64,000 nt of DNA. Origin: Flavobacteriales bacterium. GTDB lineage: Bacteria > Bacteroidota > Bacteroidia > Flavobacteriales_F > PHOS-HE28. Positions within the stretch are counted from its first letter, which is position 1. Each line of letters begins with the position of its first letter. Of this stretch, positions 44,561 to 54,890 are shown in pieces. The notes under the pieces were generated by a model. It was not told the DNA's origin. It saw nothing but the letters and a program-made list of their open reading frames with translations, and searched no databases. The position numbers were made by a program, and so were the translations under genes. Where the stretch lies: contig JAHCIA010000001.1 of NCBI GenBank assembly GCA_026129465.1, positions 505,964 through 569,963 on the forward strand. The letters run 5' to 3'.

Positions 44561-45502
44561 TCATGCTGCTTTTCGTTTGGCTTTCTTCGTCGCGTAAGCA
44601 ACGGCCGCATCGCGTACCCATGCCCCATCATTGTGGGCCTTGTTGCGGGCGGCCAGGCGTTCCTTGTTGCAGGGGCCGTTGCCGGCCACCACGTTGTTGA
44701 ACTCCGTCCAGTCGATGGTGCCCCAGTCGTAGTGCTGGGTCTCCTCGTTCCACTTCAGATCGGGATCGGGGATGGTGAGGCCGATCACCTCCGCCTGCTG
44801 CACGGTGCGGTCGATGAAGATCTGGCGCAGCTCGTCGTTGCTCTGGCGCTTGATCTTCCACTTCATGCTCTGCGCGCTGTGCGGGCTGTTGGCATCGGTG
44901 GGACCGAACATCATCAAACTGGGCCACCACCAGCGGTTCAGGGCATCCTGGGCCATTTCCTTTTGTGCGGGGCTGCCCTTTGCCAGCACGGCCATGATCT
45001 CGTAGCCCTGGCGCTGGTGGAAGCTCTCCTCCTTGCAGATGCGCACCATGGCGCGGGCATAGGGGCCGTAACTCGTGCGGCAGAGCATCACCTGGTTCAT
45101 GATGGCGGCACCGTCCACCAGCCAGCCGATGGCGCCGATGTCCGCCCAGGTGAGGGTGGGGTAGTTGAAGATGCTGCTGTACTTGGCCTTGCCGCTCAGC
45201 AGGTCGTCGATGGTCTGCTCGCGACTGGTGCCCATGGTCTCCACAGCGCTGTAGAGGTAAAGGCCGTGTCCGGCTTCGTCCTGCACTTTGGCCAGCAGGA
45301 TGGCCTTGCGCTTCAAGCTGGGCGCGCGAGTGATCCAGTTCCCTTCGGGCAGCATGCCCACCACCTCACTGTGCGCGTGCTGGCTGATCTGGCGCACGAG
45401 TGTCTTGCGGTAGGCATCGGGCATCCAGTCCTTGGGTTCGATCTTCTGCTCCGCGTCGATCTTGGCTTGGAACAGGTCCTCGAGGTTCTTCACTTCCGTC
45501 AT
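44561..45502 (-). CDS. paaA: Phenylacetyl-CoA 1,2-epoxidase catalytic subunit PaaA
   Basis: A 313-residue di-iron protein. The metal ligands appear in [17 protein letters not shown] (ExxH) and [14 protein letters not shown] (ExxH). Other family blocks are [40 protein letters not shown] and [19 protein letters not shown]. It oxidises phenylacetyl-CoA to the ring 1,2-epoxide with oxygen and electrons from PaaE. It is the first gene of the paaABCD run and is divergent from paaE. A palindrome and candidate promoter elements fill the spacer. Confidence 0.96.
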
Positions 45503-45557
45503 GAGGGCACGTCTGTTTTACGGTCAGCTAAGGTAGGACCGGGGCGCTATGCGAGGT

Positions 45558-45569
45558 TGACCGCGGTCA
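45558..45569. promoter_or_regulatory. Perfect 12-bp palindrome between paaA and paaE
   Basis: TGACCGCGGTCA reads the same on both strands. It lies in the divergent promoter region, about 22 bases upstream of a weak minus-strand -7 match (TACCTTAG, 45528-45535) for paaA. A TetR-type paa repressor is the usual user of such sites. No regulator gene for it lies in the window. Confidence 0.45.
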
Positions 45570-45629
45570 GTCAGCGAACGATCGCGGCACGCCATGGGTT
45601 CATTGCCCATGACGCTGGAGCCCAGCGGC

Positions 45630-45637
45630 TATTTTCG
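45630..45637 (+). promoter_or_regulatory. Candidate -7 element for paaE
   Basis: TATTTTCG begins 18 bases before the ATG at 45648. It supports that start over the ATG at 45594 further upstream. Confidence 0.4.
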
Positions 45638-45647
45638 CGCCCTCATC

Positions 45648-46745
45648 ATGAGCAGCACCCGGATGGCCCGTTTCCATACCCTTCCCGTCGCAGACGTCCA
45701 CCAGGAGACCGCGGACAGCATCGTGGTCACCTTCCGGATCCCTCCGGAACAGCGCGAGGACTTCCGCTTCGTACACGGTCAGTACCTCACGCTGAAGCTC
45801 ACGGTGAACGGGGAGGAGTTGCGCCGCAGCTACAGCATCTGCAGCAGCCCGCTGGATCCGGAGGAGATCCGCATCGCGGTGAAAAAAGTACCGGGTGGCC
45901 GGGCATCCACCGTGCTGGTGGACAAGTTGAAGCCGGGCATGACCATCGAGGTGATGACACCGATGGGCAACTTCACCAGCGCCCTGGACCCCGCGCATGT
46001 GAAGCATTATGTGGCCTTCGCGGCCGGCAGCGGCATCACGCCCATCCTCAGCATCCTGAAGACCGTATTGCGCGGCGAGCCGAAGAGCCGTTTCACTTTG
46101 TTCTATGGCAACACCGATGTGGACCGGATCATCTTCCGCGGCAAGCTGGAGGAGTTGAAGGCACAGTATGGCGAGCGGCTGGGGGTACACCATATCCTGA
46201 CCCAGGGCCAGGACGAGGACACGCTCTTCAACGGCAGGATCACCACGGAGAAGGCCAGCCAATTGCTCGGCCGTTTCGTCACCGACAGTCTGGACAAGGA
46301 GTATTTCATCTGTGGCCCGGAACAGATGATGGTGAACGTGAGCGAGGCACTGGAGATGCTTGGGGTGGAGAAGAAGCGCATCCATATCGAGCTCTTCACC
46401 ACGCCCGTGACGGCCGAGGCCAAAGCACCACCCCAGGCCGTGGGCGATGGGGCCTTCTCCGGCATGGCGAAGGTGACCGTGATCCTCGATGGGCGTGAGA
46501 CGGTCCTGGATGTCCGCGCCAGCGGCGATGCCGTGCTGGATGTGGCCTTGGATGCCGGACTGGACGTGCCATTCGCCTGCAAGGGCGCGGTGTGCTGCAC
46601 GTGCAAGGCCCGCGTGGTGAAAGGCCAGGTGGAGATGGCGATGAACTACGCCCTGACGGACGAGGAGGTGGAGGATGGCTACGTGCTCACCTGCCAGACG
46701 CATCCGCGAAGCGCGGAGGTGACCATCGACTACGACCAGCACTGA
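45648..46745 (+). CDS. paaE: Phenylacetyl-CoA epoxidase reductase subunit PaaE
   Basis: A 365-residue flavin and iron-sulfur reductase. The FAD-binding domain has RSYSICSSP. The NAD(P) domain has FAAGSGITPILSILKT and EYFICGPEQMM. The C-terminal 2Fe-2S domain has CKGAVCCTCKARVVKG and YVLTCQTHP (C-x4-C-x2-C...C pattern). It passes electrons from NADPH to the PaaA di-iron site. Placing it divergent from paaABCD is unusual; in most genomes it follows paaD. A strong hairpin follows the gene. Confidence 0.93.
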   Translation: MSSTRMARFHTLPVADVHQETADSIVVTFRIPPEQREDFRFVHGQYLTLKLTVNGEELRRSYSICSSPLDPEEIRIAVKKVPGGRASTVLVDKLKPGMTIEVMTPMGNFTSALDPAHVKHYVAFAAGSGITPILSILKTVLRGEPKSRFTLFYGNTDVDRIIFRGKLEELKAQYGERLGVHHILTQGQDEDTLFNGRITTEKASQLLGRFVTDSLDKEYFICGPEQMMVNVSEALEMLGVEKKRIHIELFTTPVTAEAKAPPQAVGDGAFSGMAKVTVILDGRETVLDVRASGDAVLDVALDAGLDVPFACKGAVCCTCKARVVKGQVEMAMNYALTDEEVEDGYVLTCQTHPRSAEVTIDYDQH

Positions 46746-46850: not shown

Positions 46851-47405
46851 TCAGAAGGCCGCGCTGGCGATCCCGGTAAGCCTGGTCTGGATGTGCGAGA
46901 GGTAGTTCTCGCTGTGGTAGAATCCGCTCATATCATCACTCCAACGGATGATCGCCGATGGGAAGTCGGTGTAGAAGGGGTCGATGTTCTTCGCGTTCGG
47001 GGGCATCAGGTTCACGAAGAGCTCATAGTCGGGGTAGGTCACCAGATCGGGCGGGAGATGGGTGTCGATGTAGATCATTTTTTCCTGGTAGCCCTCCTTG
47101 GTGATGCGCACGGTATAGAAGCCATCGATGTCGAGCTGAAGCTCGAAACCGCCTTTCTTGTGGATGGGTATGGCGCCCATGGGCTTGTTGTCGCGATAGA
47201 GCACCAACGTGTAGTCGTTGCTGCGCTTGCCTTCCACCAGCACCTGGCCTTGCACGGGCAGGTACCAGCCTTCGGCCTGGCCTCGCTCATCCACCAGACG
47301 GCGTTGGCCGAAGGCGAGCGTGGCGGTGCACATGGAGGCCAATAGCAGGGCATAGGGCATCCAGGCGGCGTTGTGCTTCAGGGCAATGGTTCGGGTGCGT
47401 GCCAT
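46851..47405 (-). CDS. Secreted protein of unknown function with beta-sandwich region
   Basis: A 184-residue protein. The signal peptide is near MPYALLLASMCTATLAFG, cleaved before QRRLVDE. The mature part begins with a carboxypeptidase-regulatory-like beta sandwich (VQGQVLVEGKRSNDYTLVLYRDNKPMGAI, GGFELQLDIDGFYTVRITKEGY). It ends with an aromatic stretch (NIDPFYTDFPSAIIRWSDD). This pattern occurs in Bacteroidota lineages with unknown role. It stands between paaE and the signalling operon and is transcribed toward paaE. Confidence 0.7.
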   Translation of the reverse strand: MARTRTIALKHNAAWMPYALLLASMCTATLAFGQRRLVDERGQAEGWYLPVQGQVLVEGKRSNDYTLVLYRDNKPMGAIPIHKKGGFELQLDIDGFYTVRITKEGYQEKMIYIDTHLPPDLVTYPDYELFVNLMPPNAKNIDPFYTDFPSAIIRWSDDMSGFYHSENYLSHIQTRLTGIASAAF

Positions 47406-47466: not shown

Positions 47467-49011
47467 TCAGGCGACTTTCACGAAGGGGATCGCTTCCTGG
47501 GCCGAGGAGGAGGAGGGCAATGACACGCGGATGATGGTACCCTGGCCGACGGCGCTCTGTGCCGAGACCTCCCCGCCGTGCTTGGCCACGATGCGTTGCA
47601 CGATGGCCAAACCCACGCCGGAGCCCTCGAACTGATCGGCGGTGTGCAGCCGCTTGAACACGCCAAAAGCATGGTCCTTGTGCTTGGGGTCGAAACCCAC
47701 CCCATTGTCTCGCACTTCGATGATGTGCCGGTCTCCTTGCGTCGTATGCGCGATCACGATCTCGGGCCGCTCCTCCGTGCGCGTGAACTTCAGCGCGTTG
47801 GAGAGGAGGTTCTGCAAGAGGACCAGCAGCATGGGCGGGTCGGCCAGCAGGGTGGTGCCTGGGGCTATGTCGATCCGCACCTCGGCGCGCCGATGCTCGG
47901 GTACATGCTGCCGCACCAGATCCTCCACCAGGGCATGGAGTTCCACGTCCCGGCGTTCCAGGTCGCGCGTGTTGGTCTGGCTGAAGCGCAACAGGTCGTC
48001 CACCAGCTCGATCATGCGCTGGGAGGCCTTGCTGATGCGTTCGGTGAAGGCGAGGACGTCCCCGTCGCCGTTGTCCTCGGCATGGCTGTGCAGATGACCG
48101 CTCAAGGCCAGGATGTTCTTCAATGGCGAACGCAGGTCATGCGCCACGGTGTAGGAGAATGAGCCGAGGTCTTCCAAGGCTTCGAGCAGTTGTGCGGTGC
48201 GCACGGACACGCGACGGTCCAGGTCCGCGTTGAGCTTCAACAGGCGCTTCTCCTCCTGGCGGCGGTCGCTGATGTCCTTCAGGATGGCCTGGAACACGTC
48301 CCGCTGTTGACCATGCTTGTCCAGGTAGGTGGCGGTCATCAGGCAGTCCAGCAGATCGCCCTTGCGGTCGCGCACCGTGATGTCCACGTTGATGAACTCG
48401 CGCCCCTTGCGCCGCGCTTTCAGCGACCGGACCAATGAGGAGGCGTTCTCCAGGTGATCGGTGAAGCGAGTTCTCATCAATTCCTCGAGCGGCATGCCGA
48501 TGAGGCGTCCACAGGCGGCGTTGGCGTCCAGGATGCGGCCACGGTGGTCCACGATCACGATGGGATCCGCGGCGTTGTCGAACACCTGCTGGTATTGCTG
48601 CAACAGGCGGTCCTTCTGCGCACGCAGCTGGTGGATCTCGAAGGCCTGTTCGATGCGCAGCTTCAGATCGTTGGCATCCCAGGGCTTGGTGGCGTAGGCG
48701 TAGATACCGCCCTTGTTCACCGCCGCCACCACGGCCTCCAGATCGGCGTATCCGGTGAGCAGCATGCGCATGGCGCGCGGATGTCGCTCCCTGGCCACGG
48801 CCAGGAACTCCGAGCCGGTCATGCCCGGCATCCGCTGGTCGGACACGATCACGTGCACCTCTTCCTGTTCCAGGATCTCCAGTGCTTCAACGCCGGATGA
48901 GGCCACGAGCACCTCCATGTCGCGGCGGAATGTGGTTCGGAAGGCCTTGAGGTTGCCTTCCTCGTCGTCCACGAAGAGCACCTTGATCCGTTCGTCCTTG
49001 TGCTGGTTCAT
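47467..49011 (-). CDS. Hybrid regulator: REC-PAS-histidine kinase
   Basis: A 514-residue protein with three parts. A receiver domain at residues 10-125 carries the phospho-acceptor Asp58 (VIVSDQRMPG) and Lys109. A PAS domain at about 140-255 has VFDNAADPIVIVDHRGRILDANAA. A histidine kinase has His291 (YTVAHDLRSPLKNIL), the N box NLLSNALKFT, DNGVGFDPKH and GSGVGLAIV. No membrane helix is present. Its receiver is very similar to that of the divergent response regulator at 54402. It overlaps the upstream 7TM kinase by four bases, so the two are made together. Confidence 0.92.
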   Translation of the reverse strand: MNQHKDERIKVLFVDDEEGNLKAFRTTFRRDMEVLVASSGVEALEILEQEEVHVIVSDQRMPGMTGSEFLAVARERHPRAMRMLLTGYADLEAVVAAVNKGGIYAYATKPWDANDLKLRIEQAFEIHQLRAQKDRLLQQYQQVFDNAADPIVIVDHRGRILDANAACGRLIGMPLEELMRTRFTDHLENASSLVRSLKARRKGREFINVDITVRDRKGDLLDCLMTATYLDKHGQQRDVFQAILKDISDRRQEEKRLLKLNADLDRRVSVRTAQLLEALEDLGSFSYTVAHDLRSPLKNILALSGHLHSHAEDNGDGDVLAFTERISKASQRMIELVDDLLRFSQTNTRDLERRDVELHALVEDLVRQHVPEHRRAEVRIDIAPGTTLLADPPMLLVLLQNLLSNALKFTRTEERPEIVIAHTTQGDRHIIEVRDNGVGFDPKHKDHAFGVFKRLHTADQFEGSGVGLAIVQRIVAKHGGEVSAQSAVGQGTIIRVSLPSSSSAQEAIPFVKVA

Positions 49012-51140
49012 GCGCGTTTCTCTTTCAAGCTGGAATGACGTAGCGGTAGTGTGACCTTGAATTCGGACCCCAGTTCCGGTGTGCTCTCGATCTCCATGGC
49101 ACCATGGTGTTCCTCCACGATGCTGTACACGATGGCCATGCCCAGTCCCGTGCCTTCGCCTACGGGCTTGGTGGTGAAGAAGGGCTCGAACACACGGGCC
49201 TTAACGGCCTCGTCCATGCCGGTGCCATTGTCGCTGATGCTGATGGTCACCGTGTCGCCATCACAGGTCGTCCTCGCCGTCACCAGACGTTCGTGATCGC
49301 CCGGCTTGGCGATGGTGGCCTGCGCGGCGTTGGTGAGGATGTTCATGAAGACCTGGTTGACCTTGCCCGGGAAGCACTCCACCTTGGGGATGTCGCTCAG
49401 CTCCAGCCGGAAGGTCACCCGGTCGCGGTACTGGGGGGCGAGCACGGAGAGTGTGCTGCGGATGCCCTCATTCAGGTCGGACTCCTTCAGGTCGTCCTCG
49501 TCGAGGCGGGAGAAGTTGCGCAGTCCGCGCACGATCTCCGCTGTTCTGGACGAGCCCTCGGCGATGCTGCCGATGATGTCATCCAGTTCCTCGATGGAGG
49601 TGGCGATGTCCAGCCGGCGTTCCAGGTCCTTCAACTCGCGCAGGCGGTCTGCGGCGCCTCCTTCCTCCAGGGACCGGTAACCCTTCATCACTTCGAGGAT
49701 CTCCTGGATGTTGCGCCGCAGTGGCCCGATGTTGCTGGTGATGAAGTTGATGGGGTTGTTGATCTCGTGCGCGATACCGGCCGTGAGTTGACCGATGGAA
49801 GCCATCTTCTCGGCGTTCACCAGCTGGGCCTGGGTGCGTTTGAGGTGCTCGTTGGATTCCCGCAGGGCGCGCGTGCGTTCCTGCACTTTCGATTCCAGGA
49901 TCACGTTCTGCTCGCGGATGATGCGTTCATTCTCCCGGGAGGCCTCGAGCGCAGCGGCCTGCGAACGTTCCTTTTCGCGCCGCAGTTCATTGATGCGATC
50001 CGCTAGACCGAAGGAGAGGAGCACCACCTCCACTGCGGAACCCACCACCATGGTGCTCTTCGTCAATGAGGTATAGGGCAGCACATCCAGGTCCTTCAGC
50101 ACGAATAGCATCACGCCCAAGAGGAATATGGTCCAGGCGATGAGGAAGAAGCGTGCGCTGCGCGATCCATTGCGCAAGGCGATGATGCCCACGATGAGCT
50201 GGTAGAGCGCGATGCCGCCCGTGGCCCCCTGCAGCAGGTTGTAGGAGACGATGTCCATCCCCATGGCTTTCATGGAAAGACCCACGATGAAGAGCGCATA
50301 GAAGAACCAGGCGAAGCGTCGCGTGCCCGGGGCATGTACCTCGGTATTCAGGAAACGGTGCATGAACCGGTTGGCCGCCACCGCCGTGATGATGGTGAGC
50401 ACGAAGGCGGCGCCGTGGCCCAGCCATGGACTTTCGGGCCAGAGGTAGTGCTTGTTGATCCCCAGGAAATCGGCCTGGGTGATGCCCACCAGCGTGATGT
50501 AGAGGACGTAGTGCAGGTAGCTCCTGTCCCGGGTGGAAAGGAAGATGAACAGGTTGTACAGGAGCATCACCAGGATCACCCCGACGTAGGCCCCTCCGAA
50601 ACCGTCGCGCCAACTGCGCACTTCGGCCAGCGCCACGCCGGTGCCCACGTGGATGGGCAGCCGCAGCAGCTTGTCGCTGGATACGCGCAGGTAGATGGTC
50701 GCCTCCCCATCTGCGGGAACGGGAATGCGCGTCCACATGTCAATGTCCTTGTTGCCCCATTGTGAAAGGGGTATGGACTGGCCCATGCGCTGCTCCAGGA
50801 TGGAGGTGCCGTCTCGCGCGATCGCATGGATGTCCATGCTGCCGATGTCCGGCTGCGGGATGTGGAGAAAGAGTCCTTCCTGGTTGCCGGTATTGCGCAG
50901 GCCGAAGCGCACCCAGAATGTTGAACGGGATACGTGGAAGTTGGGGACCGCCTGCTGAGACCGCTCGTAACCGTCCGTGGCGATCGCGTCTTCGAGGGTA
51001 AGTACGCCATTCGGATCTTCCAGGATCTCCACCAAATGGCCGATGGATCGCATCTCATGCCGGTCGCCCGCCTCGATCAGCGGCTGGGCGGCGAGCAGGG
51101 CGGGCAGGAAAGGCCAGAGGGCGATGCAGGGCGCACGCAT
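49008..51140 (-). CDS. 7TMR-DISM membrane sensor histidine kinase
   Basis: A 710-residue protein. A signal peptide (LWPFLPALLAAQ) leads to a 7TMR-DISMED2 extracellular domain (about residues 25-175), with FWVRFGLRNTGNQEGLFLHI. Seven membrane helices follow at about 183-385. Then comes a coiled coil, His458 in a HisKA domain (GQLTAGIAHEINNPINF), and an ATPase domain with NILTNAAQATIA, DNGTGMDE and GTGLGMAIV. The DISMED2 fold usually binds carbohydrates or other small ligands. It is the third gene of the operon with the E1/nitroreductase and GNAT genes. Confidence 0.92.
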   Translation of the reverse strand: MRAPCIALWPFLPALLAAQPLIEAGDRHEMRSIGHLVEILEDPNGVLTLEDAIATDGYERSQQAVPNFHVSRSTFWVRFGLRNTGNQEGLFLHIPQPDIGSMDIHAIARDGTSILEQRMGQSIPLSQWGNKDIDMWTRIPVPADGEATIYLRVSSDKLLRLPIHVGTGVALAEVRSWRDGFGGAYVGVILVMLLYNLFIFLSTRDRSYLHYVLYITLVGITQADFLGINKHYLWPESPWLGHGAAFVLTIITAVAANRFMHRFLNTEVHAPGTRRFAWFFYALFIVGLSMKAMGMDIVSYNLLQGATGGIALYQLIVGIIALRNGSRSARFFLIAWTIFLLGVMLFVLKDLDVLPYTSLTKSTMVVGSAVEVVLLSFGLADRINELRREKERSQAAALEASRENERIIREQNVILESKVQERTRALRESNEHLKRTQAQLVNAEKMASIGQLTAGIAHEINNPINFITSNIGPLRRNIQEILEVMKGYRSLEEGGAADRLRELKDLERRLDIATSIEELDDIIGSIAEGSSRTAEIVRGLRNFSRLDEDDLKESDLNEGIRSTLSVLAPQYRDRVTFRLELSDIPKVECFPGKVNQVFMNILTNAAQATIAKPGDHERLVTARTTCDGDTVTISISDNGTGMDEAVKARVFEPFFTTKPVGEGTGLGMAIVYSIVEEHHGAMEIESTPELGSEFKVTLPLRHSSLKEKRA

Positions 51141-51188
51141 GCGCGGCTTCTACGCCACACAACGTGCAGGGGTTCCTCCCGGAAGGGA

Positions 51189-51944
51189 TCAGGCGATGTA
51201 GCGCAAACGATCCTCCCGGATGCTATCGTAGGTGGCCAGATCGTGGATGCCATTGTCCAGCCGCATCCGATAGTGGATGAAAAGATCCGTGCGGGTGGTT
51301 CGTTCCACGCGCTTCTGGTCCGGTGCCATCCGCAGGCTCAGGATCCTTTCGCGCAATGGCGCGATGGCGTGCTCCAGGGTCAAAAGGTCGTCAATGCCCA
51401 CCACTATGCCTTGGAAGCCCCGGCGCGGGTAGGCATGGAACACCCCTTGGTCCCCGATGCTCAGCACGGGTCGGAAGCCGAAGTCCAGGCTGTGGTCCAG
51501 GGTGTAACGTGCCGCCAGTCCAAGCAGGGTCTTGATCCCCAACTGGCTGGCCAATGAAATGGCGGAGAGGCCGAATAGCGTGGGCATGCCCTTGCCGTGG
51601 TAGCGCACCGCGTTCCACATGCCGCAGAGTTCACCAACGCCATCCTTGGCGCGTTCACGGACCAGTTCGTGGATCGAAGGGTCCAACTTGCCTATGGCCA
51701 GTTCAATGGGCAAGTGGTTGTCGGCGGAGGTCCGCACATGCACGCGTGCGCCACCGACCATGCCCAGTTCGGCGTGTTCCACGGTGATCACATGAACATC
51801 CGGGTCGGTTATCCAATCGGCGTTGTTGGTGTTCACATGGGTGATCCCATAGTCGGTGAGCACCCGCACATGTTCCCGAAGGAATTCGGCACAGGAGGCG
51901 GGGTCGTCGGTGGCCCGGAAGGCACGGATGGTGAGAATGTCCAT
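51189..51944 (-). CDS. GNAT-like acyltransferase, possible signal synthase
   Basis: A 251-residue protein. It has an N-terminal MDILTIRAFRATDDPASCAEF helix, a core strand HVITVEHAELGMVGGARVHVR, a VGELCGMWNAVRYHGKGM motif, and LSIGDQGVFHAYPRRGFQG near the end. The layout resembles GNAT and LuxI-like/N-acyl amino acid synthase folds. A VGGARVH and GELCGMW pattern is often seen in acyltransferases paired with Rv1355c-like genes; this is recollection, not a search. The start lies four bases after the upstream stop. A possible role is making or modifying a signal molecule. Confidence 0.6.
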   Translation of the reverse strand: MDILTIRAFRATDDPASCAEFLREHVRVLTDYGITHVNTNNADWITDPDVHVITVEHAELGMVGGARVHVRTSADNHLPIELAIGKLDPSIHELVRERAKDGVGELCGMWNAVRYHGKGMPTLFGLSAISLASQLGIKTLLGLAARYTLDHSLDFGFRPVLSIGDQGVFHAYPRRGFQGIVVGIDDLLTLEHAIAPLRERILSLRMAPDQKRVERTTRTDLFIHYRMRLDNGIHDLATYDSIREDRLRYIA

Positions 51945-51948
51945 GGGT

Positions 51949-54258
51949 TCAGGTCGTTACGGTCTCGTGTTGGGTGAACAGAGCCGAAAGGGGTCGCCGG
52001 AGCGAACGGGCGCTGGGTGGTGGTGCGTAGGAAAGGCGGACCATGAACAAGGGTTCGCGGTCGTTGATGCGGAAGAGTTGGACCAGTTGTTCCCAGAGGT
52101 CCAGGGCCTCCTGGCGCTCCTGTGGTTTGAACCCCGAGCCATCGCGGCGGGCATGCTGGCCCAGGAAGATGGGAGCGGAAAGGGGATGCACCGCCAGCCC
52201 CAATGCCGTGGCGCACAACCACAGACGCTGGGCGGCACGTCCTCCATCGATCCGCTGCGCGAAATCGAGGGAAGGCATGGAGAGCAGCACCACGGCCGAG
52301 GAGGTGCGCACGGTATCGGCGGACAGTTTCTCCAAGGCGCCGCCGCCGCCCATGGCGCCCAGCGTGCGGATGGCCATGGGCGCCGCCGCCATGCGCATGC
52401 CCACACGCCCCGCTGCCCCAAGCTCCAGTGTCGCGATATCCAACCCGTCCCGGTGACGTTCGGCCTCCTGGGTGTTCCAGCGCAACTGGTGTTGGAAGAA
52501 CTCGCGGTGCCCATGCTCGTTCATGATGCGCAGCCTGTCCGCGGCACCCTGCAACACGGCCAACGTGTCGATCGCCGCTCCATCCGTGATGGTGTGGAGC
52601 TCGGCCCCGTCGACCGACCGGACTTCCCGGACCAATCGTTCCAACTGCAACGTGGGAATGGGGCGCCCGTCTCCCTTCTGGCGATTGGTGTGCCTTGCAG
52701 CCAGGAACCGGCCCAATGCGGGGTCTACGGTCGAATTGGCCCCATTGCGGCTGAAAACGGCGACCAGGTCGTGGTCTTCCGACAGGGGCAGGGTGTCGCA
52801 ATGCAGGTCCATGCCGCGCTCGGCAGCACGCAGCAGGATGTTCTCCACGCACATGCCCAAGCCGATGTGGGGTATCAGCCGGTCCGGGTCGAGCACCGAT
52901 GTTGATCGTGCCGGATCATGCCACAGCAGCAGGCGACCCTCCACGAGTTCGAACCGCCACGGCTGCATGTTGTCCGCCGATGGTGCCATGGCACCGGCTT
53001 CGGCCAGATCCCGGGCCTCTTGAGTAGACAATCCGCCATGGCCCCGTCCTGCCAGGGATGTGGGTTCGCTTGGTAGGGTCACCACCACTTCCTGGGCCGG
53101 AGCATCAGGCTCCAAGGGTGGGGCGGGCGAAGGAGCCTGAGCGCCGGCACCACCGATCAACGCTTCCATGTCCACATACCAGCGGCCGGAAACACGGAAC
53201 TCGTCCAGCGCTATTCTCCGGCAGACATCCCCGGTGAGCGCACCGCCGAGCACGGTGCTTGTGGCCAGTTGGGGCCAGGATGTGATGGTATGTCCCACCT
53301 CGATCATGCTCGCCTTCATGCGCGGACTCAGGTGGTCCAGCCCCGCCATGGGCGCCAGGTAGGGTATCTTCTCCTCCATGGTGCGGGCGTGGGTCGCGGC
53401 CTCCAGGTCCAGATGGTCGATCAGGCCATGGAGGATGGGCCGATCGGGTTCCAGGTCGAAGCGCTCCACATCGATCATGCCGCGGTCATTGGTGTCCATT
53501 ACCACCGCGATCCGATGGGCCTTGGCTCGCTGCCGGGCCAGGATCTTCATCTCCACACTGTCACATTCCTCCACCAGGATGTCGAGCTTGCCTCCGTCGG
53601 TGAGGAAGCGGTCGATATTCCCACGTGTGATCCCCTCGGTGAAGCAGGTCACCCGAAGGAAGGGGTCCATCTCGGCGATCTCGCGGGCCGCCAGAACGGC
53701 TTTGTTGATGCCCAGTTGGTGCACCCCACCCCGGATCCGGTTCAGGTTGCTCAACTCCAGTTGGTCGAAGTCGGCCAATCGCAACTCACCGAAGCCGCGC
53801 TCCAAAGCCAGTGTCAGGGCCACGCTCTGGCCCACGCTCAGTCCGATGACCCCGATGCGCTTGGTCGACAAGAGGGCCTGTTCCTGCCGGGTGATCTTGT
53901 TCCGGTTGCGATCGGTGCGGACCAGGGCGAATTCCGGCTCATCCAGAAGATGAACCAGGCGGCCGGACCATGGGTAATGGGCCCACACGCCGTACTCCTC
54001 ACCGGGGACCATGCCCAAGTGTGCCTGGGCGGCGGCGTCAAGTTCTTGTCGGTTGAACTGCCGGGATGGGTTCAGCGACCGCACCAATTCGGTGAGTTGA
54101 CCGTGCAACGCGTCGTGCGTCACGATCCGTGGGTCGCGCTTCAGCAGTTCCTCCAGCCTTTCCCGGTCCCCCGGTAAGGCCAAGCGGAAGAACTCCGGCC
54201 TGTACGTGTCCAAGCCGGTCGCCGAAGCGCCCCTGAGGGCGTCGGTCAGAAAGGTCAT
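51949..54258 (-). CDS. Rv1355c-like fusion: E1-like ThiF domain plus nitroreductase
   Basis: A 769-residue protein. An N-terminal region (about residues 1-120) precedes an E1/ThiF-like domain with RIGVIGLSVGQSVALTLA (nucleotide loop), LRLADFDQLELSNLNRIR (catalytic Asp and Arg), and GINKAVLAAREI (Lys). The family's Cys in the adenylation loop is not evident (VEECDSVEMK). After a Pro/Ala linker, a nitroreductase-like FMN domain begins at about 405 with EAGAMAPSADNMQPWRFEL. The same pairing is known in Mycobacterium Rv1355c, of unknown function. I use the ATG at 54258; TTG at 54261 is also possible. Confidence 0.82.
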   Translation of the reverse strand: MTFLTDALRGASATGLDTYRPEFFRLALPGDRERLEELLKRDPRIVTHDALHGQLTELVRSLNPSRQFNRQELDAAAQAHLGMVPGEEYGVWAHYPWSGRLVHLLDEPEFALVRTDRNRNKITRQEQALLSTKRIGVIGLSVGQSVALTLALERGFGELRLADFDQLELSNLNRIRGGVHQLGINKAVLAAREIAEMDPFLRVTCFTEGITRGNIDRFLTDGGKLDILVEECDSVEMKILARQRAKAHRIAVVMDTNDRGMIDVERFDLEPDRPILHGLIDHLDLEAATHARTMEEKIPYLAPMAGLDHLSPRMKASMIEVGHTITSWPQLATSTVLGGALTGDVCRRIALDEFRVSGRWYVDMEALIGGAGAQAPSPAPPLEPDAPAQEVVVTLPSEPTSLAGRGHGGLSTQEARDLAEAGAMAPSADNMQPWRFELVEGRLLLWHDPARSTSVLDPDRLIPHIGLGMCVENILLRAAERGMDLHCDTLPLSEDHDLVAVFSRNGANSTVDPALGRFLAARHTNRQKGDGRPIPTLQLERLVREVRSVDGAELHTITDGAAIDTLAVLQGAADRLRIMNEHGHREFFQHQLRWNTQEAERHRDGLDIATLELGAAGRVGMRMAAAPMAIRTLGAMGGGGALEKLSADTVRTSSAVVLLSMPSLDFAQRIDGGRAAQRLWLCATALGLAVHPLSAPIFLGQHARRDGSGFKPQERQEALDLWEQLVQLFRINDREPLFMVRLSYAPPPSARSLRRPLSALFTQHETVTT

Positions 54259-54300
54259 CAAAAGGTCAGACGAGAGCGGTCCAAGGTTCTCTTGCGCAGA

Positions 54301-54308
54301 CGAAGGTA
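54301..54308 (-). promoter_or_regulatory. Candidate -7 element for the E1/nitroreductase operon
   Basis: Minus-strand TACCTTCG, 50 bases upstream of the ATG at 54258. It would drive four genes through 47467. Confidence 0.4.
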
Positions 54309-54318
54309 ATCAAGGCCG

Positions 54319-54355
54319 GGTTATCAACAAGTTTTGAACATGTTGTTCAATAACC
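54319..54355. promoter_or_regulatory. Two overlapping inverted repeats in the divergent spacer
   Basis: TTGAACA (54334-54340) and TGTTCAA (54344-54350) form a 7-bp inverted repeat with a 3-base spacer. Around it, GGTTAT (54319-54324) and ATAACC (54350-54355) form another. The region is much richer in A+T than the rest. It may bind a regulator that controls both the operon and the response regulator gene. Confidence 0.5.
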
Positions 54356-54401
54356 TGCTGATACACACTTCCGTAGCAGGGGGCCAAACAACGCCATACC
54401 C

Positions 54402-54890
54402 ATGTCCAATGCCATGCCCCTGCGCCATGTGGAACCGAAGCCCGTGGTGGTCTTCGTGGACGATGATGCGGGCAATAGACAGGCCTTCAAGGCGGCCTTC
54501 CGCCATGCCATGGAAGTGCTCACCGCCGCTGACCTCGCTGAGGTTTGGCAGCACCTGGCCCAGCATCGGGTGCATGTGGTGATCACCGATCAGCGCATGC
54601 CGGGTACCCGGGGCAGCGAGTTGCTCTCCCTGGTGCGCGACCGGTATCCTCATGTCCGCCGCATGCTGGTGACCGCCTATTCGGACCTGGAGGCCATCAT
54701 CGATGCCGTGAACAACGGTGGTGTGACGAAGTACTTCGCGAAGCCCTGGGTGAACGACCAGATCCAGCAGGCCGTGAAGCAGGCCTTCCAGGAGATCCGT
54801 ACCGAGGAGGAACGGGTCGAACGTTTGGAGCGGCTGGAGGAGACCAACAGGCAACTCGAGTTCGCCCTGCGCCAAAGGCTTCTGTCCTAG
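54402..54890 (+). CDS. Single-domain response regulator
   Basis: A 162-residue protein. A receiver domain at about residues 15-130 has the acidic pocket VVFVDDDAGN, phospho-acceptor Asp63 (VVITDQRMPG) and Lys114 (YFAKPWVND). A short helical tail (EEERVERLERLEETNRQLEF) follows with no output domain. Its receiver resembles that of the REC-PAS kinase at 47467 along its whole length, including the VxITDQRMPG and YADLEAVVxAVNxGG patterns, so they are paralogues. It is divergent from the operon and may be the partner of its two kinases. Confidence 0.9.
   Translation: MSNAMPLRHVEPKPVVVFVDDDAGNRQAFKAAFRHAMEVLTAADLAEVWQHLAQHRVHVVITDQRMPGTRGSELLSLVRDRYPHVRRMLVTAYSDLEAIIDAVNNGGVTKYFAKPWVNDQIQQAVKQAFQEIRTEEERVERLERLEETNRQLEFALRQRLLS

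Follow-up and report, generated by a model that had tools for sequence, protein, structure and literature searches.

The window, a stretch of 64,000 nucleotides of DNA from a Flavobacteriales bacterium, carries a compact set of five genes. Four of these lie on the minus strand, with intergenic spacings of 4 and then 48 bases and a final 4-base overlap, and the fifth is divergent. The positions of all five genes, the two gaps and the overlap are as given in the initial annotation of this DNA. The genes and the parts of their products that enter the analysis are:

51949-54261, minus strand: ThiF-nitroreductase (E1/nitroreductase) fusion, 770 aa; TrzS-like ThiF cyclase joined to a flavin-dependent oxidase (FDO)
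53152-54261, minus strand: ThiF cyclase half of the fusion, residues 1-370, from alignment with stand-alone ThiF homologues
51952-53064, minus strand: FDO (nitroreductase-superfamily oxidase) half of the fusion, residues 400-770, from matches to the NF047509 Acg family and PF00881
51189-51944, minus strand: FeeM/LuxI-fold acyltransferase, 251 aa, predicted signal synthase, from an AlphaFold2 model and structure matches
49008-51140, minus strand: 7TMR-DISM histidine kinase, 710 aa (DISMED2 ectodomain, 7TM, HisKA, HATPase), predicted receptor
49995-51035, minus strand: sensor half of the DISM kinase (DISMED2 ectodomain and 7TM), residues 36-382
49011-49943, minus strand: kinase half of the DISM kinase, residues 400-710, conserved across tailoring types
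47467-49011, minus strand: REC-PAS-HisKA-HATPase protein, 514 aa, PhcR-like architecture, predicted intracellular relay
54402-54890, plus strand: divergent stand-alone REC protein, 162 aa, without DNA-binding domain, PhcQ-like role predicted
54262-54401, no strand: intergenic region that separates the divergent REC gene from the synthesis/sensor operon, from sequence

Both promoters likely lie in the intergenic region at 54262-54401. The fusion opens with a TTG at 54261, and the ATG at 54258 is the likelier start. Beyond the REC-PAS-kinase gene, on the same strand, follows a gene for a 184-aa protein without Pfam matches (46851-47405, minus strand), which is kept in nearly all same-genus loci (33–68% identity), not in other families, and is possibly an additional operon gene confined to the genus. 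Homologues of PaaA and PaaE (phenylacetate degradation, 44561-46745) adjoin the operon throughout the genus, again not in other families, and make a link to aromatic metabolism possible.

Predicted enzymes and relay proteins of the operon

The fusion protein matches the NF005901 Rv1355c family over residues 18–763 (E = 2.1e-225; 750 bits against a cut-off of 476) and PF00899 (ThiF) with an E value of 3e-18. When aligned with Rhodococcus TrzS and stand-alone ThiF homologues, it retains the ThiF motifs GLSVG, ADFD..SNLNR and ECD, and the residues of adenylation (nucleotide loop, SNLNR and the ECD aspartate) are present. Rv1355c has been renamed TrzS (Kleetz et al. 2025, PMC12856293). For M. smegmatis TrzS, ATP-dependent cyclisation of N-acyl-tryptophan was assigned to the ThiF half and desaturation of the ring, with O2, to the FDO half, which together give N-acyl tryptazolones; the partner of TrzS, TrzA, is an N-acyltransferase, and the product of mycobacterial TrzAS is an N-acyl-tryptophan oxazolone (PMC12856293). 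The related OxzAB and TyzACB make the tyrosine/phenylalanine analogues (PMC10404671). The initial annotation held that the E1/nitroreductase pairing of Rv1355c was without an assigned function; these two papers supply one, that of a ThiF-FDO cyclase/desaturase in oxazolone biosynthesis (PMC12856293, PMC10404671). Sequence homology predicts that the fusion turns an N-acyl amino acid into an oxazolone by cyclisation and desaturation.

The acyltransferase is the exception among the locus proteins, whose domains otherwise match Pfam or NCBIfam, in that it has no family match in either collection. Its AlphaFold2 model (mean pLDDT 83, pTM 0.82, from a 40-sequence alignment) is best matched by FeeM (VIA-align Z = 16.1, rmsd 2.8 over 173 residues), followed closely by the AHL synthases LasI (Z = 15.3), BjaI (15.2), TofI (15.0) and RpaI (14.3); general GNATs score nearly as high over a shorter stretch (ElaA, 15.6). 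The top Foldseek matches are RpaI, BjaI and FeeM. The suspicion that this protein is LuxI-like was borne out by a model with the FeeM/LuxI fold, rather than one unrelated to acyl transfer, and the model supports its prediction as a TrzA/OxzA-like N-acyl amino acid synthase that would serve as signal synthase. Since a full-length TrzS-family fusion adjoins a FeeM-fold neighbour, the first two genes form a TrzAS/OxzAB-like pair of a known kind.

The DISM kinase matches PF07696 (E = 1.4e-20) and PF07695 (E = 2e-44) as well as HisKA and HATPase_c. It is the only 7TMR-DISM protein encoded in the window's genome, and the location of this sole representative in the operon argues that the association is not due to chance. 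Sugars have been regarded as ligands of DISMED2 domains, which weighs against an acylated amino acid as the ligand of this kinase; to our knowledge, few 7TMR-DISM sensors have a known ligand.

The REC-PAS-kinase matches PF00072 (E = 5.6e-19), PF00989, PF00512 and PF02518, and the stand-alone REC protein matches PF00072 (E = 4e-20). Within the genome, the closest paralogue of the latter is encoded in the same cluster: it is the REC domain of the REC-PAS-kinase (45% identity, E = 7e-36; next best 3e-10). In the Phc relay, PhcR combines REC and kinase domains and PhcQ consists of REC only, neither with a DNA-binding domain (PMC8578825); the likeness of the two proteins described here to PhcR and PhcQ is one of domain architecture. 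No LuxR-type receptor or transcription factor is encoded in the window's operon, where the candidates are the kinase and the REC proteins, and the homologous loci yielded neither a conserved transcription factor nor an output gene. The C-terminal QLEFxLRQKLLS tail of the stand-alone REC protein is strongly conserved in 111 homologues. This tail may dock an output partner.

Conservation of the set and variation of its tailoring enzyme

We gathered homologous loci by the acyltransferase alone, so that the kinases were not selected for, and called their genes as tblastn-anchored ORFs. Three sources were used: 31 loci with flanks from a sample of 58 relatives (28 from the window's genus and 3 from other families), 13 loci from a phylum sample of 392 genomes, and 80 named loci, one of them a duplicate, for a total of 123 distinct Bacteroidota loci. 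The named loci are mostly from Pedobacter, Mucilaginibacter, Sphingobacterium, Daejeonella, Arcticibacter, Taibaiella and others, and are centred on Sphingobacteriales because of the query used. In the phylum sample, the acyltransferase occurs in 14 of 392 genomes (the window's own included) and 12 of 174 genera.

A DISM kinase lies downstream of the acyltransferase on the same strand in 120 of the 123 loci, and in the other three the contig ends 131, 684 or 2447 bases past the acyltransferase. The REC-kinase is present in 113 loci and the stand-alone REC protein in 111, on the opposite strand in 107; the REC-kinase is apparently missing from four loci with room for it (L058, L146, L148 and L164). 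Among the 58 relatives, 31 have both the acyltransferase and a full-length DISM orthologue (at least 509 bits; next best 275) and 25 have neither. The two exceptions are a contig that ends after the acyltransferase (G012) and one that starts within the kinase (G030). Spacing in the homologous loci is operon-like, with medians of 11, 36 and 32 bases, and outside the genus conservation extends to the operon set and not to the adjoining paa and M1-peptidase genes. The genes thus co-occur in many Bacteroidota genera, as expected if the five-gene grouping proposed from the single sequence is real. A second small REC protein of a different subtype (~130–140 aa) often follows the REC-kinase (L077, L081, L088, L076 and most Sphingobacteriales loci).

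Outside Bacteroidota, where sampling covered plasmids only, the one Streptomyces ThiF+GNAT locus and the one Rhodococcus TrzS locus that were read have no annotated DISM kinase within 6–7 kb, and a search of the plasmids for the REC-kinase returned generic kinases only. In the Streptomyces locus (L169:6938-8736) a stand-alone ThiF gene overlaps the GNAT gene, again with no DISM kinase annotated nearby, and this ThiF is 49% identical to the ThiF half of the window's fusion, nearer to it than the mycobacterial and rhodococcal TrzS matches on plasmids. The Rhodococcus TrzS gene has a GGDEF-domain gene upstream (L170:3863-4798), which echoes the c-di-GMP genes reported to neighbour trzAS in M. tuberculosis.

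Beside the constant acyltransferase and DISM kinase, four variants of the tailoring enzyme were found: ThiF-FDO, ThiF alone, a class I SAM methyltransferase (MT) and an ICMT-family methyltransferase. The MT occurs in 31 loci and the ICMT-family enzyme in 2 (PF04140, E = 3.5e-18 and 1.5e-19), and the remainder are ThiF-bearing; an FDO part alone was seen in two loci, where the contig end cuts the fusion. Different types can coexist within a genus, namely ThiF, ThiF-FDO and MT in Mucilaginibacter, ThiF and MT in Sphingobacterium, and ThiF-FDO and MT in Pedobacter. The ThiF half occurs alone in many homologous loci and the FDO half has been gained or lost among homologues. Within the window's own genus, the FDO half is missing and ThiF alone is left in L034, L041, L060 and L061.

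The model of the MT is that of a class I methyltransferase, with structural matches compatible with O-, N- or C-methyltransferases and mixed NCBIfam matches (UbiE, ArsM, the fatty-acid O-MT Mtf2 and BioC). As these matches are mixed and silent on the acceptor atom, carboxyl methylation by the MT is what we infer rather than read from them. One chemistry would nevertheless fit all the variants: masking of the carboxylate of an N-acyl amino acid, either by ring closure or, as proposed for the methyltransferases, as a methyl ester. The predicted product of the MT and ICMT variants would be a NAME, a class of structural analogues of AHLs; because the genes of NAME synthesis are not assigned (PMC11580390), this link is put forward as a hypothesis.

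Covariation of the tailoring enzyme and the sensor half

Joint change of the tailoring enzyme and the sensor half is apparent when loci with kinase domains 80–90% identical are compared in pairs. Identity of the 7TM region in such pairs is 76.5% between loci of one tailoring type and 37.0% between loci of different types, compared to 64% and 28% for the ectodomain and 86% and 72% for the acyltransferase. The identity profiles jump from 20–40% to 80–95% near residue 390, which is the boundary between sensor and kinase.

Trees give the same picture. We counted the changes of tailoring type that each IQ-TREE tree of 90 loci requires, first with four states and then with cyclase versus methyltransferase; these trees come from rapid searches and include some long branches. 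The sensor tree requires 8 and 2 changes, compared to 23 and 15 for the kinase half and 19 and 12 for the acyltransferase, and the REC-kinase (22 and 13, 83 loci) and stand-alone REC protein (21 and 10, 82 loci) resemble the latter two. Taken separately, the 7TM region requires 6 and 2 changes and the ectodomain 10 and 3, while shuffled two-state labels require ~26. FastTree yields similar counts (sensor 7 and 2, kinase half 23 and 14, acyltransferase 21 and 13). The MT-type sensors, 30 in all, group in a single clade (SH-aLRT 99) that takes in the one from L058, a locus of a distant family.

Partial Mantel correlations between tailoring enzyme and sensor, which control for relatedness through the kinase, REC-kinase and REC identities, are 0.58 in ThiF loci and 0.94 in MT loci (p = 0.002, 499 permutations), and within the window's genus r is 0.51 between acyltransferase and ectodomain (p = 0.001) and 0.59 between the FDO half and the 7TM region (p = 0.001); the p values are guides only because related loci are treated as exchangeable. 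The corresponding control, acyltransferase against REC protein, gives an r of −0.03. Together, these sequence comparisons suggest that the tailoring enzyme and the sensor half constitute an exchangeable specificity cassette, whereas the kinase half, the REC proteins and the acyltransferase stay. Most simply, the sensor half would recognise the product of the tailoring enzyme.

Alternatively, the kinases may regulate production of the metabolite on another cue, such as envelope or redox stress, with the oxazolone acting as an effector (an antimicrobial or membrane lipid) and not as a ligand. Such an arrangement would agree with the proposed link of oxazolones to stress and their induction by subinhibitory antibiotics in proteobacteria (PMC12856293), as well as with the frequent presence of regulators in biosynthetic clusters. 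We consider it unlikely, since nothing would make a generic stress sensor follow the tailoring chemistry when its kinase half and relay remain constant.

The coupling could also be inflated by linkage, because the tailoring gene adjoins the sensor in most loci (83 of 118 scored). Recombination between the conserved acyltransferase and kinase-domain flanks would then move both without any functional tie, and non-homologous tailoring genes offer no homology for crossovers between tailoring gene and sensor. The gene order in the window's genus (fusion, acyltransferase, sensor) speaks against linkage alone, in that the correlation of the 7TM region with the FDO half exceeds that with the intervening acyltransferase (r = 0.35). 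The MT-type sensor from a distant family also falls in the same clade as the others, and strict co-inheritance of the set would be left unexplained, making linkage as the sole cause a very improbable explanation. Finally, a protein substrate for the E1 domain, as in E1-E2 defence operons, whether for ubiquitin-like conjugation or to activate a sulfur carrier, is hardly credible: the weak PADLOC E1-E2 matches (E = 4e-9 at best) stem from the E1 fold, no E2 or JAB partner was recognised adjoining the fusion, and we rejected the conjugation or defence reading because the fusion is a full-length member of the Rv1355c/TrzS family, its partner is a FeeM-fold acyltransferase and methyltransferases substitute for ThiF elsewhere.

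A candidate signalling system and its relatives

The proposed recognition of the tailored product by the sensor half leads to a model in which the operon is, in our judgement quite probably, a synthase/receptor system for cell-cell or self-sensing that uses carboxylate-capped N-acyl amino acids and an agr-like specificity cassette. Computation shows that the genes are inherited together, which folds and families the proteins belong to, and that tailoring enzyme and sensor are exchanged jointly; the exact product, ligand binding, phosphotransfer and output are what we infer. The FeeM/LuxI-fold enzyme would join an acyl chain to an amino acid, probably an aromatic one. ThiF-FDO would activate the carboxylate with ATP, close the oxazolone ring and desaturate it, yielding a neutral AHL-like molecule; in sister loci, capping would be achieved by ThiF alone or possibly as a methyl ester by a class I or ICMT-like methyltransferase. 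The 7TMR-DISM kinase would sense the product through its ectodomain and 7TM bundle, and phosphate would pass to two proteins that do not bind DNA, the REC-PAS-kinase and the stand-alone REC protein, in the manner of PhcS-PhcR-PhcQ, and from there to the output.

Sensing may be intercellular, intracellular or located at the envelope, all three being possible. In mycobacteria, oxazolones are mainly cell-associated and N-acyl amino acids are mainly in the supernatant (PMC12856293). By analogy, the former would fit an extracellular signal poorly, a difficulty that the latter soften.

Conservation of the set and the FeeM/LuxI fold both lend good support to the initial proposal of a small molecule made and sensed by the cell. 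The proposal of a new signalling system stands in part: the biosynthetic pair is already known, as is the relay architecture from Phc, and the novelty lies in the coupling of the pair to a PhcSRQ-like relay and in tailoring enzyme and sensor being exchanged jointly, the latter not visible from a single genome. We know of no N-acyl-based quorum-sensing system established for Bacteroidota. Our literature search, which covered subscription journals and preprints thinly, likewise found no 7TMR-DISM or N-acyl quorum-sensing system in this phylum, nor, within the same incomplete coverage, the operon combination, its spread in Bacteroidota or the exchangeable tailoring/sensor cassette. On balance, we lean towards a Bacteroidota-wide quorum-sensing family whose signals would be N-acyl amino acids capped exchangeably at the carboxyl group, as an oxazolone, a dehydro-oxazolone or a methyl ester, and in which joint swaps of tailoring enzyme and 7TMR-DISM sensor create specificity groups. 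If true, it would provide the first receptor for oxazolone lipids and a small-molecule autoinducer for 7TMR-DISM kinases. The 2025 TrzAS paper names the physiological role of N-acyl oxazolones as a major unresolved question (PMC12856293); for these molecules, the operon provides candidates for the receptor, the relay and the specificity code, testable in harmless environmental genera such as Pedobacter, Mucilaginibacter and Daejeonella. The joint exchange of the enzyme that finishes the synthase product and the sensor half suggests a previously undescribed bacterial communication system.

Several known systems resemble the operon in part. TrzAS, OxzAB and TyzACB (M. tuberculosis, Rhodococcus, Pseudoalteromonas) share the FeeM/LuxI-fold acyltransferase adjoining a ThiF-FDO fusion. 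However, no sensor kinase has been described for them, whereas a DISM kinase and relay accompany the pair here, and in the Bacteroidota loci methyltransferases can replace the FDO or the whole ThiF. LuxI/LuxR (AHL) shares the synthase fold and, as predicted here, a neutral N-acyl product with a masked carboxylate; it differs in that detection here would be by a membrane kinase, and capping by a separate, exchangeable enzyme instead of lactonisation on the synthase. PhcBSRQ of Ralstonia pseudosolanacearum, as here, combines at one locus a synthesis/tailoring enzyme with a kinase in the membrane, a REC-kinase and a stand-alone REC protein devoid of a DNA-binding domain. Its signal, however, is the methyl ester of a fatty acid, produced by the methyltransferase PhcB, whereas the window's operon has a FeeM-like acyltransferase as the predicted signal synthase and a 7TMR-DISM protein as the sensor; with an acyltransferase and ThiF-FDO and no methyltransferase, we do not file it as a Phc system despite its predicted Phc-like working. 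The agr specificity groups of staphylococci are the basis of the last comparison. In agr (agrBDCA), as here, a signal-processing gene and the sensor half of a kinase covary between conserved flanks, although agr uses a peptide, a small molecule is predicted here, and the proteins are unrelated.
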